NCBI GenBank assembly: GCA_030653545.1
Contig: JAURZE010000015.1
Span: 1-64,000, forward strand
From: Nitrospira sp.
GTDB lineage: Bacteria; Nitrospirota; Nitrospiria; Nitrospirales; Nitrospiraceae
DNA: 64,000 nt
Direction of reading: 5' to 3'
The notes under the pieces were generated by a model. The model was not told the origin of the DNA and made no database searches. It was given only the letters and a program-made list of their open reading frames with translations. The position numbers and the translations under genes were made by a program. Shown here piece by piece: positions 29,702-38,504 of this stretch (positions are counted from its first letter, which is position 1; the number at the start of each line of letters is the position of its first letter).

Positions 29702-31582
29702 TTACTCGCCTCGAATCGCTGCGAGTTTACTCAGCACCAGACCAGAGGACGGATCTGTCTGTTTGAGCGGGGGGGTGATGAGAGGGCGTTGATCACTGCT
29801 GAATTGAGTCTTCGCCGCCCAGCTAACTTTCTGGCTCACGTACGCGGCTACTTCTGCTAGGGTGACGGACCCATCGCGATTTGAGTCGCTCTCTCCTCGC
29901 AGCGCGCGGAGCAGGTAGTACGTCATCAGTCCATGGCGGTGTTTGTCGTCTTCGAGGCCCTTGCTGAGGCTATCGCTGCTGATGATGCGGATCATTGATG
30001 AACCTGCTGAGTCCCAGCGGGGAGGGAGGTTTTTTATTTTGGGGTCGCTATGGAGTCTCGACACCATCCCGTCAAATAGCAGAATGGTCTGTTTCGCCTT
30101 GAGTCGTGCCAGCGCCGCTTCAAGATCCTTCAGCGGATAGAGGCGCGAAGTCGCGGTCGGGCTCCCCTCGTAGGGAACCAGGAGCACGTCTCCTGTATGG
30201 TTCACCAGAGCCTGGCCGGCGAAGTACACAATGACCACAGCGTCCTTGGACATATGCGGCGGGAGCCAGTCCAGGAGAGCTTCGTCGATATCCGGGCGTA
30301 AGGCTTTCCAGTCTTGTAGGAGGCGCACATTGGATGAAGGAACTCCCCCCAGGGCCTGAAAGTAGTTGGACACCATCTCTGCATCGAGTGACGCGAACTT
30401 GCGGGGGAGGAGTTGCTGGTCTCGGTAGGATCCGATTCCGATCGAGATCAGGTAGGTGTTGGGTTGGCGGAATTCCGTGGTGGAGACGGGGATTTGATCC
30501 ACGTCATCGGTTTTAATCCCGGTCGCTTGCATCACGACTGCCAACGTTTGTGATGGGGCCGCCTGGTGCGTGGCCGGTTCTTCGACCGTGACATGGAGTT
30601 CGGCTTTCTGCGGCTGCACGGAAGGCGGCAGAGTGGCCACAAACTCAATAGACTTGGTCTCTCCCGCTTGCAACGTCGGGACGGGAAGCACGGCTGACGG
30701 GAAATGCGTAATCAGCGCCTGACTGCCGGAGAGGGAGACGATGGCCTGCTGAATCGCCGTCGTGCCGACGTTCACAATATCAACGCGGACCCGGACGCGT
30801 TCACCGCCTTCCAAGACAAGGTTTCCATTTTCATCAAGGACCATCGCTTTAAAGCGGAGGGAAGAAGCCGCGGTCGCCGTTGCAGCCGGAGGCTGAGGCT
30901 TGCTTGTCGGGAGTCCCGCTGCAGGCTGGGGCAGCGTCGCCGGGGCGGAGGCCACTGCCGGCGCAGCCCCCTGGGTCGCTCCTCCGAAGGCTTGCCGAAC
31001 ATCCATCGAGACCTTCGCGGCAAAGTCGACAGAGGTGTCTTGGATAAATGGGTCGATGATGTAGTCGCAGTTGCGTTGGGTGGCCTCTAGGCGCAGTCGT
31101 TCTTGGCGTACGACCTTCACCTCGGATTCGCGCAAGACTTTCCCTGTGAGATCGTAGACCCGTGCGATGGCATTCAATTGAATATTCGCCGGGACGCGGT
31201 CGTAGACGTTGTCTTGCTGAAGTTTGAATGACCAATTCACCAGATCCACGCGCACCAGGGCTTCCGGAACTGCATCTTTGCTTCCGCCTCCTTCGTAGGA
31301 GACGGATTTGAATGTCCGATAGGCCCCTTCCACGAGAGCTTCTTCGAGTCGAGTTCCGAGCGGGACCTGCATGAGATGTCCGCATCCGTCGGTATACTCC
31401 GCCCGCAGATTTTTGATCGAAGCAGGGATTTCCAGCTTGACCGAGACGGGCAACGGATCACCCATTGGAGGAAACTCCAAGCGGCTCGCACATCCGACCC
31501 CAGTGATCAGGAAGAGCACCGTCAAGATGGTTCGAAGTGGCTTTCTGGGGGGGCTGGCGGGCATGGACAAGGAACCGTTCAT
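29702..31582 (-). CDS. Lipoprotein with catalytically degenerate caspase-like domain
   Basis: A 626-residue lipoprotein (lipobox GVGC, Cys about 31). Residues 40-200 form an unknown N-terminal domain; 245-350 look like an immunoglobulin-like fold (ERVRVRVDIVNVGTTAIQQA); 375-600 form a caspase-like (peptidase C14) fold, with the strand VVIVYFAGQAL and the LLFDGM strand. In caspases these carry YxSGHG and DxCxSG. Here Gln (about 457) replaces the His and Met (about 506) replaces the Cys, so it should be inactive as a protease. A perfect EF-hand loop DSNRDGSVTLAE (566-577) follows. It may be a calcium-responsive scaffold. Confidence 0.75.
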   Translation of the reverse strand: MNGSLSMPASPPRKPLRTILTVLFLITGVGCASRLEFPPMGDPLPVSVKLEIPASIKNLRAEYTDGCGHLMQVPLGTRLEEALVEGAYRTFKSVSYEGGGSKDAVPEALVRVDLVNWSFKLQQDNVYDRVPANIQLNAIARVYDLTGKVLRESEVKVVRQERLRLEATQRNCDYIIDPFIQDTSVDFAAKVSMDVRQAFGGATQGAAPAVASAPATLPQPAAGLPTSKPQPPAATATAASSLRFKAMVLDENGNLVLEGGERVRVRVDIVNVGTTAIQQAIVSLSGSQALITHFPSAVLPVPTLQAGETKSIEFVATLPPSVQPQKAELHVTVEEPATHQAAPSQTLAVVMQATGIKTDDVDQIPVSTTEFRQPNTYLISIGIGSYRDQQLLPRKFASLDAEMVSNYFQALGGVPSSNVRLLQDWKALRPDIDEALLDWLPPHMSKDAVVIVYFAGQALVNHTGDVLLVPYEGSPTATSRLYPLKDLEAALARLKAKQTILLFDGMVSRLHSDPKIKNLPPRWDSAGSSMIRIISSDSLSKGLEDDKHRHGLMTYYLLRALRGESDSNRDGSVTLAEVAAYVSQKVSWAAKTQFSSDQRPLITPPLKQTDPSSGLVLSKLAAIRGE

Positions 31583-31708
31583 GGAGTTCTCGCTCCGAGG
31601 GCTGGGGTTAATTTGGACGGGTCACCGTACCGGATTCAAAAGGTGAAAGCAACACGGAGCCGCCCATCTCTTGCGGCCTTGCGGCCACTCGATCTATGCT
31701 CGGTGCCC

Positions 31709-33433
31709 ATGCTGACTCTGGGGCTTTCCAATATGCGCGATGCGGCAGCCGCCCTCGTCCAAGACGGGCGGATTGTGGCGGCTGCGGAAGAGGAACGGTT
31801 CGTTCGCATCAAGCATGTGTCCGCCTTGCCCGTTCATGCGATTCGATACTGCCTGAAAGAAGCCGGACTTCGTCTCTGCGATCTCGACGCGGTGGCGGTG
31901 CCGTGGAAGTATTGGGAAGTCGGCGCGCGCGCAAGGTTAGCGTTCAGCGCGATGTTCCGCTCGCCCGAACTGTTTCGAGAGAAGGGCCGGCGGTCGATTG
32001 AGCGTCTGCGTCAGGAGTGGTGGGAACTGGCCTGGATGCGACGGAAGCTGAGTGAGCAGATCGACGGGACGCCATGCCCGCCTGTCACGTTCCTCGATCA
32101 TCACATGTGCCATGCTGCCAGCGCGTTTCTGGTCTCCCCATTTGAACAAGCGGCAGTCATGGTTGTCGACGGAGCCTCTGAGTCGCATTCGACCATGGTG
32201 GCGATGGCCGGCCGGCAACAGATTCAAGCGATCAGGCGCACGCCGCTTCCTCATTCCCTCGGCCAATTCTATGCTGCCATGACCGCATTTCTGGGGTTCA
32301 AGCCGGACCGCGATGAGTACATCGTGATGGGGCTGGCGGCGTATGGAGAGCCGCGTTATGCCGAGACCATTCGCCGACATATCCTTCGGCTGGTTCCCGA
32401 CGGAACCTTTACACTGAATACCACGTTGCTGGATTTCCATCTGGCGCGTGTCGGGATCTTTGTTCCCGGGTTGATCTCCTTGCTGGGGGCGGCGCGGCTA
32501 CCGGACGAGGAGGTGATGCAGCGACATCGCGATCTGGCCGCGAGCGTGCAGCTGGTGTTAGAGGAAGTCTTGCTGGCCTTGGCCCGCGCGCTTCGCATGA
32601 ACACGAAGGCTGATCAACTCTGCCTCGCGGGCGGAGTGGCCTACAATTGTGTCGCCAATAGTCGACTGTGTCGGGAGGCGGGCTTTCGCGAAATCTATAT
32701 TCCTCCCGCCGCCGGTGACTCCGGTGCCGCGATGGGTGCCGCGTTGTGGCACACGTTTCGGCGCGGGGCAATGACTCAGCGTCCGGTCATGACGACGGCC
32801 TATTGGGGGCCGCAGTTCAGTGAAATGGATTGTCAGACGACATTGCGGCGAGCGGGGTTACAGGCTCAGCGGTTAGGCGATGCGGCGTTGTGCGACCTCG
32901 TGGCCCAGGAGCTCTCAAACGGCAAATTAGTCTTCTGGTTCCAGGGGCGGATGGAGTGGGGGCCGCGGGCGTTGGGCAATCGCAGCCTGCTGGCCGATCC
33001 GCGCCGGGAGGACATTCGCGCGCTCATCAATGCCAAGGTCAAACAGCGTGAATTATTCCGTCCCTTTGCGCCCTCCGTGCTGGCAGAAGAAGCGGACGCG
33101 TATTTCGATGTGCCGGCCCCTTCTCCATTTATGATGTTGACGGTCTCTGTGAAGCCTAGTGCGAAAGGCATTATCCCGGCGGTGGTGCATGTGGACGGGT
33201 CGGCGCGAGTTCAAACGGTCGATCGGCAAGCCAATCCCCTCTTTCATCAATTGCTGCAGGCCTTCGCCCGGCGGACCGGGGTCCCGGTTCTCCTCAACAC
33301 CTCCTTTAATGTGCAGGAGCCGATCGTCTGTTCGCCGGAAGAAGCGGTTCGCTGCTTCCAGCGCACCGAGGTCGATTGGCTGGTATTGGGGAACCTGCTT
33401 GTGGCAAATCAGGCCGGTTCCCGCCTGCTATGA
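31709..33433 (+). CDS. Carbamoyltransferase (NodU/CmcH family)
   Basis: The ATG at 31709 (MLTLGLSNMRDAAAALV) starts the family's usual N-terminus; the frame is open from 31376 but without conserved sequence. The 574-residue enzyme has the NodU/HypF-like N-domain with the DHHMCHAASAF metal motif and the VVDGASESHSTMV segment, then the C-terminal domain with CLAGGVAYNCVANSRL, PPAAGDSGAAMGAA, and RMEWGPRALGNRSLLADP. These enzymes move a carbamoyl group from carbamoyl phosphate to a sugar or antibiotic hydroxyl. The gene overlaps the next membrane protein gene by 4 bases (ATGA), so surface-glycan modification is plausible. Confidence 0.9.
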   Translation: MLTLGLSNMRDAAAALVQDGRIVAAAEEERFVRIKHVSALPVHAIRYCLKEAGLRLCDLDAVAVPWKYWEVGARARLAFSAMFRSPELFREKGRRSIERLRQEWWELAWMRRKLSEQIDGTPCPPVTFLDHHMCHAASAFLVSPFEQAAVMVVDGASESHSTMVAMAGRQQIQAIRRTPLPHSLGQFYAAMTAFLGFKPDRDEYIVMGLAAYGEPRYAETIRRHILRLVPDGTFTLNTTLLDFHLARVGIFVPGLISLLGAARLPDEEVMQRHRDLAASVQLVLEEVLLALARALRMNTKADQLCLAGGVAYNCVANSRLCREAGFREIYIPPAAGDSGAAMGAALWHTFRRGAMTQRPVMTTAYWGPQFSEMDCQTTLRRAGLQAQRLGDAALCDLVAQELSNGKLVFWFQGRMEWGPRALGNRSLLADPRREDIRALINAKVKQRELFRPFAPSVLAEEADAYFDVPAPSPFMMLTVSVKPSAKGIIPAVVHVDGSARVQTVDRQANPLFHQLLQAFARRTGVPVLLNTSFNVQEPIVCSPEEAVRCFQRTEVDWLVLGNLLVANQAGSRLL

Positions 33434-35993: not shown

Positions 35994-36776
35994 ATGCACA
36001 ATCTGGTTCGCGGTGCCGCTCTTCTGACAGTGTGTGTGCTCGTTGCCGCCTGTGCAAACGCGGTTCCTCCGAGTCGCATGGGCCACTATCTCAAGTTTGA
36101 CCAACCCTCAGCCCCTGAATCGCTCCTCAAAACGGAGCCGCGTCCGTTAAAAGCCGGTTTGGTGCTCGTGCCGGATGAGCCGGATCAAACTGCCGCAGCC
36201 GTGTTACCCGAAGAGGCGCTCGTGCGATTAGGGGATACGCTCAAGCAGGATATTGCGCGGGTCTTACCTGTGACCGTGACCGAGGTATTTTCGGCGGGAG
36301 GGGTGCGTCCTCAGGATCAAGGCGGAGATCTCACCCGACTGGTCGATCTGGCGAAGAGTAAGGGTTTGGATTATTTGGCGGTGGTGGTGGTCTCGAGCGC
36401 AGAGCAGGAATATCCCGTCACGCTCTTCCTGGGATGGACCTCGCATGCGCAGCCGGGCTACCGACGGGATAATTGGTCGCTCTTGGAGTTTGCGTTGATC
36501 GAGGTCAAGTCCGGCAAGGCGGTCATGCAGGCCGAGGGGCGAGGATGGGCGACGTTGGATCGCCCCACAGCCCCGGGGATCAATCAATGGTACCCGGTCG
36601 TCTATCTCAGGCCGCAGGAGCCTGAGCGGCGGATCTGGCCGCCAACTTATGAAGGAGCTCCCAATACCTTGCGCGTGGTATCGTTTGAGCAAGCCGAGAA
36701 ACGGCTTGCATTGAAGCTTCAGAACTCCTGGCTGGGTCAGCTGGAAGCCGATGCGGCGGCTCGCCGAAGCAGTTGA
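35994..36776 (+). CDS. Lipoprotein of unknown family, 260 aa
   Basis: The product has a lipoprotein signal with lipobox VAAC and a ribosome site GGAGG 6-8 bases before the ATG. The mature part mixes strands and helices: GLVLVPDEPDQTAA, LKQDIARVLPVTVTEVFS, LAVVVVSSAEQEYPVTLFLGW. It has the look of small outer-membrane lipoproteins near curli or LPS functions, but I cannot name a family. It lies divergently from the GT2 gene. A perfect-stem terminator-like hairpin follows at 36821-36863. Confidence 0.65.
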   Translation: MHNLVRGAALLTVCVLVAACANAVPPSRMGHYLKFDQPSAPESLLKTEPRPLKAGLVLVPDEPDQTAAAVLPEEALVRLGDTLKQDIARVLPVTVTEVFSAGGVRPQDQGGDLTRLVDLAKSKGLDYLAVVVVSSAEQEYPVTLFLGWTSHAQPGYRRDNWSLLEFALIEVKSGKAVMQAEGRGWATLDRPTAPGINQWYPVVYLRPQEPERRIWPPTYEGAPNTLRVVSFEQAEKRLALKLQNSWLGQLEADAAARRSS

Positions 36777-36867: not shown

Positions 36868-36983
36868 TCTTTGAAGCCCAAGGAATGATTAGTGTAAGAT
36901 GTACCGTTCGGTCGGTCGCTACCCAGCTGGTTACCGATCAGAGTGAGGTGTCTTGTGAGTTCAACCGTCGGGAGGAACTGAGC

Positions 36984-38504
36984 ATGGTCTATCGGAGTCA
37001 GCAGGCGACCAAGTTTGTGATTGGTTGTGGGCTTGTACTTGCGGCCACGGTCGCAGGCGGGTTGATCGGAGCCCCCGCTGCATTGGCGGCAGGCGTTCCT
37101 CCGGCATTTACCCAAGGTTTTTCTGAGATCGTCAAGAAAGTGACCCCTGCGGTTGTGAATATCGCCGTGACAGGCGGTGGCGGGGAAGGTGGTCGTCGCC
37201 GGGGCGGGCTTCCCCCCGGACCGTTCGGCGGACCTCCTGGTGGTGGTGAAGAGCCGGGTGGAGGAGATCTTCCGACGCCGCCTCCGATGCCGCCGGGCCC
37301 TCCAGGGGGGCATGGACGACCTGAGCAGAGTGCCGGGTCGGGGGTCATTCTGGATCCTAATGGCTATATCGTCACGAACAACCACGTGGTCGAAGGTGCG
37401 ACACAGATTACGGTGACGCTGAGTGATCGGCGGGAGTTCACGGCCAAGACCGTGGGAACCGATCCGAAGACCGATTTGGCGGTGATCAAGATCGAGGCGA
37501 AGGACCTGCCTTCACTGAAATGGGCCGACTACGACAAGCTAGCCGTGGGAGATTTGGTGTTGGCCGTCGGCAGTCCGTTCGGGCTGAGTTCTACCGTGAC
37601 ATTGGGCATCATCAGTGCGTTGGGCCGCGGGAACGTGGGCATCGCCGACTACGAAGATTTTATTCAGACCGACGCGGCGATCAATCCGGGTAACTCCGGC
37701 GGGGCGCTGGTCAACATGAACGGCGAATTGATGGGTATCAATACCGCCATTTTCTCCCGCACCGGTGGTTCAGAGGGAATCGGGTTTGCCATTCCCAGCA
37801 GCATTGCGGTGGATATTGTCGACAGCCTTCAAAAAACCGGCAAAGTCGTCCGCGGCTGGATGGGCGTGGCGATTCAGGAAATTACGCCGGCCTTGGCCAA
37901 GTCGTTTAAGTTGCCGGAGCAACGCAAGGGCGTGCTCATCAGCGACGTGAATGAAAATGGACCGTCGGCTGCCGCCGGAATGAAGCGCGGCGACGTGGTC
38001 ATCGCGTTCAACGGTAAGGAAGTTCAAAGCGTGAGCCAGCTGCGTAATCTGGTGGCGCGGACCATGGTAGGCAAAGATGCCCAAGTGAAAGTCCTGCGCG
38101 ACGGGAAAGAGCAAACCATCTCCGTGAAGGTCGCTGAACGGCCGTCCGACGAGTTGCTGGCCAAGAAGGATGCGGCTCCACCCAAGGAACAGGGTGAGAC
38201 GATCAAGTTGCCGGACAATGTGCTGGCGTCGCTCAAGATTCAAGCGTTGGACAATGCGATCATGAGCCAGCTGAACATCCCGGCCAAGACGACGGGCGTG
38301 GTCGTCACAAGCGTGGAGCCGGGCGGTCAGGCCGAAGCGGCGGGATTGCAGCGTGGAGACATCATTCAGGAGGTCAATCACGAGACCGTCAAGACCGTGG
38401 ACGACTTTCTGAAGGCTGCGAACAAGATCAAGAAAGACGAATTGGCCGTGCTGCTGGTGAATCGGCAGGGCAATAGCCTGTTCGTGGCAGTCAATCCAAA
38501 GTAG
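36984..38504 (+). CDS. degP: HtrA/DegP-type periplasmic serine protease
   Basis: The ATG at 36984 follows GGGAGGAAC and starts a signal peptide; the frame is open from 36885. The 506-residue protease has the catalytic His at about 134 (TNNHVVE), Asp at about 164 (DPKTDLAVI) and Ser at about 238 (NPGNSGGAL), followed by two PDZ domains (about 285-380 and 400-500, GVLISDVNENGPSAAAGMKRGD and GVVVTSVEPGGQAEAAGLQRGD). A loop of about 50 residues (64-114) of Gly, Pro and Arg, in the place of the LA loop, is unusually long. It degrades or chaperones misfolded envelope proteins. Confidence 0.93.
   Translation: MVYRSQQATKFVIGCGLVLAATVAGGLIGAPAALAAGVPPAFTQGFSEIVKKVTPAVVNIAVTGGGGEGGRRRGGLPPGPFGGPPGGGEEPGGGDLPTPPPMPPGPPGGHGRPEQSAGSGVILDPNGYIVTNNHVVEGATQITVTLSDRREFTAKTVGTDPKTDLAVIKIEAKDLPSLKWADYDKLAVGDLVLAVGSPFGLSSTVTLGIISALGRGNVGIADYEDFIQTDAAINPGNSGGALVNMNGELMGINTAIFSRTGGSEGIGFAIPSSIAVDIVDSLQKTGKVVRGWMGVAIQEITPALAKSFKLPEQRKGVLISDVNENGPSAAAGMKRGDVVIAFNGKEVQSVSQLRNLVARTMVGKDAQVKVLRDGKEQTISVKVAERPSDELLAKKDAAPPKEQGETIKLPDNVLASLKIQALDNAIMSQLNIPAKTTGVVVTSVEPGGQAEAAGLQRGDIIQEVNHETVKTVDDFLKAANKIKKDELAVLLVNRQGNSLFVAVNPK

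Follow-up and report, generated by a model that had tools for sequence, protein, structure and literature searches.

A putative pseudo-orthocaspase lipoprotein of Nitrospirales with a lost catalytic pair and a retained EF-hand loop

Bacterial caspase homologues are mostly discussed as cell-death proteases. What could a caspase-fold protein do for its host once the residues that cut are gone? The question is raised by a 64,000-nucleotide stretch of a Nitrospira contig (hereafter the window), in which a gene at 29702..31582 on the minus strand, with orthologues in Nitrospira, is translated into a protein of 626 residues. The answer that we favour, with a probability of about 0.62, is that it is a non-catalytic, calcium-stabilised pseudo-orthocaspase of the envelope, a binding or scaffold part that needs no active caspase partner and goes back to one old loss of the catalytic Cys. 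We compared it with 79 orthologous loci, labelled Nitrospira or Nitrospiraceae/Nitrospirota except for one labelled Nitrosospira. Six of these are partial or broken and were left out, and the other 73 together with the window protein make up the 74 full-length Nitrospira sequences counted below; alignment A2 takes in 47 of the 79 loci. The search for relatives found a match in 56 of 59 genomes, including all those of the same genus, in some cases through fragments or paralogues only.

The preliminary description of this gene had assumed a caspase-like fold, which the structure model and the PF00656 (Peptidase_C14) matches of orthologues bear out. The AlphaFold model has a mean pLDDT of 78.2, and residues ~370-620 (29723..30475; this and all other features of the protein lie on the minus strand) are predicted as a caspase-fold domain, the blocks of which are mostly above 80, with one at 63. 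The model could be superimposed on the MALT1 paracaspase (3uo8) with a Z-score of 21.5 and an rmsd of 3.4 for 217 residues, and it matched metacaspase-4 (Z 20.8) and GSU0716 (Z 19.9). At the sequence level, PF00656 was matched at E <= 0.01 by 43 of the 48 aligned members of the orthologue set, several of which exceed the curated cut-off of 21.4 bits (37.7 bits, for example). The window protein itself had no PF00656 match at E <= 1 in the Pfam search and only a sub-cut-off NCBIfam caspase match (38.3 vs 140 bits), and a sequence-only search of the PDB returned nothing for it or for alignment A2. With intact relatives included, profile A4 did match PDB entries: metacaspases, MALT1 and two EF-hand proteins. 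We consider the caspase fold settled as far as prediction allows. In front of it, residues ~240-355 (30518..30865) probably form a CARDB-like beta-sandwich, judging from the strands in the model and a PF07705 match of 18.6 bits, below the cut-off of 22.7; the same profile was matched by 17 of the 48 aligned members at E <= 0.01. Among the general Pfam matches of the window protein and the aligned orthologues, no further domain such as a p10 appeared C-terminal of the caspase domain.

The Gly-Gln and Met that had been reported in place of the catalytic residues were confirmed in the translation (GQ at 456-457 and DGM at 504-506). Both catalytic residues are lost, as Gln457 (30212..30214) aligns on the catalytic His and Met506 (30065..30067) on the Cys of intact caspases. 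The loss at position 506 proved general: ten different residues occupy it in the 74 full-length sequences, and Cys is never among them (0/74), while position 457 holds Gln in 41, Leu in 23, His in 7 and Val in 3. The combinations are accordingly diverse, with QM in 22 sequences, LI in 13, QK in 8, HK in 5 and thirteen rarer kinds. The variability of position 506 is at the 97th percentile within the domain, and its neighbours 504 and 505 are nearly constant. Across the subfamilies of the order, none of 34 pseudo forms has Cys at the equivalent position, the pairs being R-S, N-S, Q-P, H-P and others. A different His/Cys pair was sought and none was found, because the only conserved Cys residues (31, 67 and 172) all lie outside the caspase domain. 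We also considered His548 and His550: both are conserved, but His550 sits in an HGLFTY-like motif that intact enzymes share. What remains is a p20 caspase-fold domain with His and Cys lost, hence a pseudo-orthocaspase, and with Gln457 and Met506 instead of His and Cys it does not qualify as an active C14 peptidase. Judged from its residues, the window protein should be incapable of His-Cys-type cleavage.

Two acidic residues of the presumed substrate pocket were retained. Asp400 (30383..30385) is present in 32 of 32 intact domains and 31 of 34 pseudo forms, and Asp504 (30071..30073), two residues before the former Cys, in 32 of 32 and 32 of 34. Alignment with metacaspases suggests that Asp400 corresponds to the first pocket Asp described in PMC6426788, and the role of Asp504 is likewise presumed by analogy with that text. 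Since three of the 34 pseudo forms lack Asp400, binding in the pocket may not be general.

The other feature in the domain is an EF-hand loop, DSNRDGSVTLAE, at residues 566-577 (29852..29887), which is intact in the translation, the alignments and the model, as the preliminary description had it. The model places it between two helices (552-564 and 575-594), and its 12 residues have Asp at position 1, Asp/Asn at 3 and 5, Gly at 6 and Glu at 12. Asp566, Asn568 and Glu577 are identical in all 74 sequences, and position 570 is Asp or Asn in every one. The idea that the EF-hand had been added to the caspase domain had to be abandoned, because the loop is present at this very position in intact His-Cys relatives too. 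The canonical loop occurs in 34 of 34 pseudo forms vs 13 of 32 intact domains, several intact lines having lost it, in a count that leaves out the rows L183 1444-3021, L233 529-1932 and L183 3-1559. Fourteen further distinct domains comprise 13 intact ones and one pseudo form (L247, with K-S, from the same family), and the nine from outside the order are all intact. As read by eye, ten of these 13 intact domains have the loop, one of them with a three-residue alignment insert in front of it, which narrows the gap in retention. Moreover, the pseudo forms constitute one clade and are not independent, so that their stronger retention of the loop is one contrast rather than a proof. We found no second EF-hand loop anywhere in the protein, and a single loop is more in keeping with a structural calcium site than with a calcium sensor of paired loops. 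Calcium in this loop would thus presumably serve as a structural ion.

When did the catalytic pair disappear? In a tree from which the alignment columns of the pair and of the loop had been removed, one branch with support of 100/99 separated all pseudo forms from the other rows, and it was recovered in 100% of 200 bootstrap trees. This tree contains 30 pseudo and 27 intact rows, as 12 of 69 rows were dropped (L183 1444-3021, L233 529-1932, L183 3-1559, five long-branch rows and four near-copies), and a long-branch warning still applies to L032, L070 and L204. An earlier tree, likewise without those columns, gave the same split with an SH-aLRT of 99 for 34 vs 33 rows, after removal of the duplicate L183 1444-3021 and the weakly similar HP-type ORF L233 529-1932. 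The intact row nearest to the pseudo clade, L200, has the loop. One old loss is the simplest reading of the single branch: among the ancestors of the order, an EF-loop caspase probably lost its catalytic Cys a single time and so gave rise to the pseudo clade. When an intact EF-loop query (L067) was searched across the phylum, 98 of 198 genomes had matches, and these include pseudo forms.

The gene is under purifying selection. Its whole-gene dN/dS against five relatives is 0.07-0.15, and that of the caspase domain is 0.04-0.08 in the four pairs out of five that yielded a value; saturation at synonymous sites left some estimates missing, and large dS makes others rough. It is broken or shortened in several Nitrospira, which might suggest a decaying pseudogene, yet those dN/dS values and the full-length frame at 73 of 79 loci make this explanation highly improbable. 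The orthologues L028, L029, L030, L124, L142, L144 and L145 have stops, frame changes or fragments, from assembly error or decay. In G022, a genome in a single contig, all matches are more distant and presumably stem from the paralogues, so the gene is dispensable there. In several Nitrospira the gene is followed downstream by a partial second copy (L078:7823-8590, L083:7815-9155, L088:8669-8893 and L101:8764-8976), a remnant of tandem duplication.

The proposal of a lipoprotein at the envelope is supported by Cys31 and by the fold of the N-terminal domain. Cys31 (31490..31492), the presumed lipidation Cys, is invariant in the 74 sequences and follows a hydrophobic stretch, as assessed by eye and with a regular expression. 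The lipobox reads ...TGVGC in the window protein, and a Gly at its -3 position is unusual. Lipidation at Cys31 would place the protein in the outer membrane. The domain that follows, residues 32-202 (30977..31489), reached a pLDDT of 91.4 when folded alone, and its structural matches were the DUF330 protein XCC0632 (2iqi, Z 11.7), CsgG (10.5), the lipoprotein CC_3750 (10.4), LptE (about 9) and PelC (8.9). Pfam had no match for this domain. Such a predicted LptE/CsgG/DUF330-like match denotes a fold that outer-membrane lipoproteins have in common rather than a function. Within the domain, Cys67 and Cys172 are also invariant (74/74), which suggests a disulphide. Alignment gave no clear result on whether intact relatives share the N-terminal domain. 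A 374-residue frame in a genome of family f3 (L050:2806-3927, G055) matches residues 34-314 of the window protein only, covering the lipoprotein region and part of the CARDB-like region but not the caspase domain; it adjoins two copies of the small lipoprotein described below.

A dead caspase could also act on a live one. c-FLIP is a decoy and inhibitor for caspase-8, and the window protein might similarly inhibit an active caspase in its own cell by pairing through the caspase fold. Five further PF00656 proteins are encoded in the genome of the window, and the caspase-8:c-FLIP entry 3h11 is among the structural matches (Z 20.2), beside many plain caspases. However, there is no caspase among the window neighbours within ~5 kb, and in seven f3 genomes with the pseudo form that are 95-100% complete (G036, G039, G050, G052, G054, G056 and G057) we detected no PF00656 match and exactly one match to profile A4, namely the pseudo form itself. 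Three f2 genomes show the same pattern, but their completeness is 71-87%. Because the seven f3 genomes have no other detectable caspase, a c-FLIP-like role is unlikely as the common function, and as an explanation for the window protein we rate it doubtful. The genome of the window also encodes a second pseudo-caspase (L031:2233-4323; G000:C24:230370-232232) with Arg-Ser for His-Cys, a pair found in 16 of 16 aligned Nitrospira paralogues, and an intact His-Cys caspase with the same EF loop in a 1094-residue frame (L032:567-3848; G000:C36). Two other genomes of the family (G118 and G191) have a dozen matches each to the intact EF-loop query, several in tandem, and two of these genes that we examined by eye have ankyrin-like N-termini.

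We then considered whether the neighbouring genes point to a function. The window protein is divergent from an O-carbamoyltransferase (31376..33433, plus strand; PF02543 and PF16861), which we take to be of the NodU/CmcH type and the true start of which is probably downstream of 31582. Beyond it follow a membrane protein without a Pfam match, a GT2 glycosyltransferase, a small putative lipoprotein without a Pfam match (35994..36776, plus strand) and an HtrA-type serine protease with PDZ domains (36885..38504, plus strand). Neighbours elsewhere were identified by blast of the window proteins against ORFs, so that an absence near contig ends means little. The glycan-modification pair that the preliminary description saw divergent from the gene was recovered in part: in other genera of the family, 16 of the 18 orthologous loci have the carbamoyltransferase next to the gene in divergent orientation, but it is present at only 15 of 79 Nitrospira loci and was not found by this blast beside the f3 forms, which are more distant and which the small lipoprotein adjoins instead. 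These other-genus loci, together with the likeness of the N-terminal domain to PelC and LptE among others, could speak for a role in the export or modification of surface glycans, together with the genes of the carbamoyltransferase and the glycosyltransferase. Against such a role stand the scarcity of the carbamoyltransferase within Nitrospira and the fact that the fold is common to many outer-membrane lipoproteins, and we regard it as improbable.

The HtrA gene is a divergent neighbour in many Nitrospira, lying upstream in 63 of the 63 full-length loci having HtrA, with a gap of less than 600 bases between the frames in 39, and on this basis the protein might be a calcium-dependent adaptor that passes envelope proteins to HtrA. 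Other genes intervene in the window and in other genera, though, HtrA was not found within the short flanks of f2 and f3 forms, and the closeness is explicable by loss of the intervening genes; an adaptor role thus appears unlikely. A homologue of the small lipoprotein directly adjoins the pseudo-caspase in 10 of 12 f3 loci, the other two reaching the contig edge. These f3 homologues, some in tandem, are the deepest neighbour link found. No neighbour is conserved order-wide. An ancestral cluster probably held the pseudo-caspase with the lipoprotein, the carbamoyltransferase and HtrA in some arrangement, from which genes were lost, and the neighbouring genes are no proof of joint function.

As the dead form is old, order-wide and under selection, it is probably a binding part rather than an enzyme. 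According to our preferred reading of an envelope pseudo-orthocaspase, Cys31 would hold the lipoprotein in the outer membrane and is followed by an LptE/CsgG/DUF330-like domain, then by a CARDB-like spacer and, at the C-terminus, by a caspase-fold domain incapable of His-Cys cutting. A calcium ion bound by the EF-hand loop probably makes the helix-loop-helix close to the domain's end more rigid, and the former substrate cleft, with its acidic pocket residues kept, is a probable binding site for a protein or peptide that carries a basic residue. Most likely the protein would serve some envelope process as a binding or scaffold component, and an active caspase partner would not be needed, a step supported by the seven genomes without one. 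A more specific version, which is speculative and has only a small chance of being correct, is that a calcium-loop caspase of Nitrospirales became a non-cutting peptide receptor of the outer membrane, in which envelope calcium shapes the dead cleft, basic peptides are captured, and docking or signalling proceeds through the lipoprotein domain even without an active caspase. In a major nitrite-oxidising group, then, a probably single loss of the pair was followed by continued selection on what remained of the domain, most of all on the calcium loop, even in genomes without a detectable active relative. The clade offers a natural experiment on the roles of the caspase fold other than cutting, in which a structural calcium site is set apart from the activation of proteolysis by calcium.

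How does this clade compare with known systems? The MALT1 paracaspase and metacaspases, active enzymes with solved structures, have the same fold (Z about 20-21). The intact EF-loop caspases of Nitrospirota represented by the L067 query share ~36% identity over the domain and the same loop at the same place, but differ in having kept His-Cys and in their varied N-termini, some of them ankyrin-like by eye. Pseudo-orthocaspases accounted for 858 of 9,994 bacterial orthocaspases (Klemencic et al. 2019, PMC6426788). They resemble the present proteins in a p20 fold without His-Cys, retained acidic pocket residues and whole inactive clades. In contrast, they mainly carry Tyr-Ser, Tyr-Asn, Tyr-Ala or Phe-Ser and come from Cyanobacteria and Alphaproteobacteria, whereas the Nitrospirales clade combines Gln/Leu/Arg/Asn with Met/Ile/Lys/Thr/Ser/Pro, has a lipoprotein domain in front and kept the EF-hand loop. 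The terms nitrospira and lipoprotein are absent from that text, where EF-hand appears once, for archaeal orthocaspases. Only 57% of the Nitrospirae homologues keep the His-Cys pair (Asplund-Samuelsson et al. 2012, PMC3501461); the available portions of this survey count such pair-less forms and name no such family, lipoprotein or calcium loop, and none of the terms EF-hand, efhand, calcium and CARDB appears in its text. Likewise, no paper on a Nitrospirales pseudo-caspase family was found among titles and abstract beginnings of the open-licence literature. Pseudo-orthocaspases were already known, and the order-wide lipoprotein clade of Nitrospirales is a new form of them.
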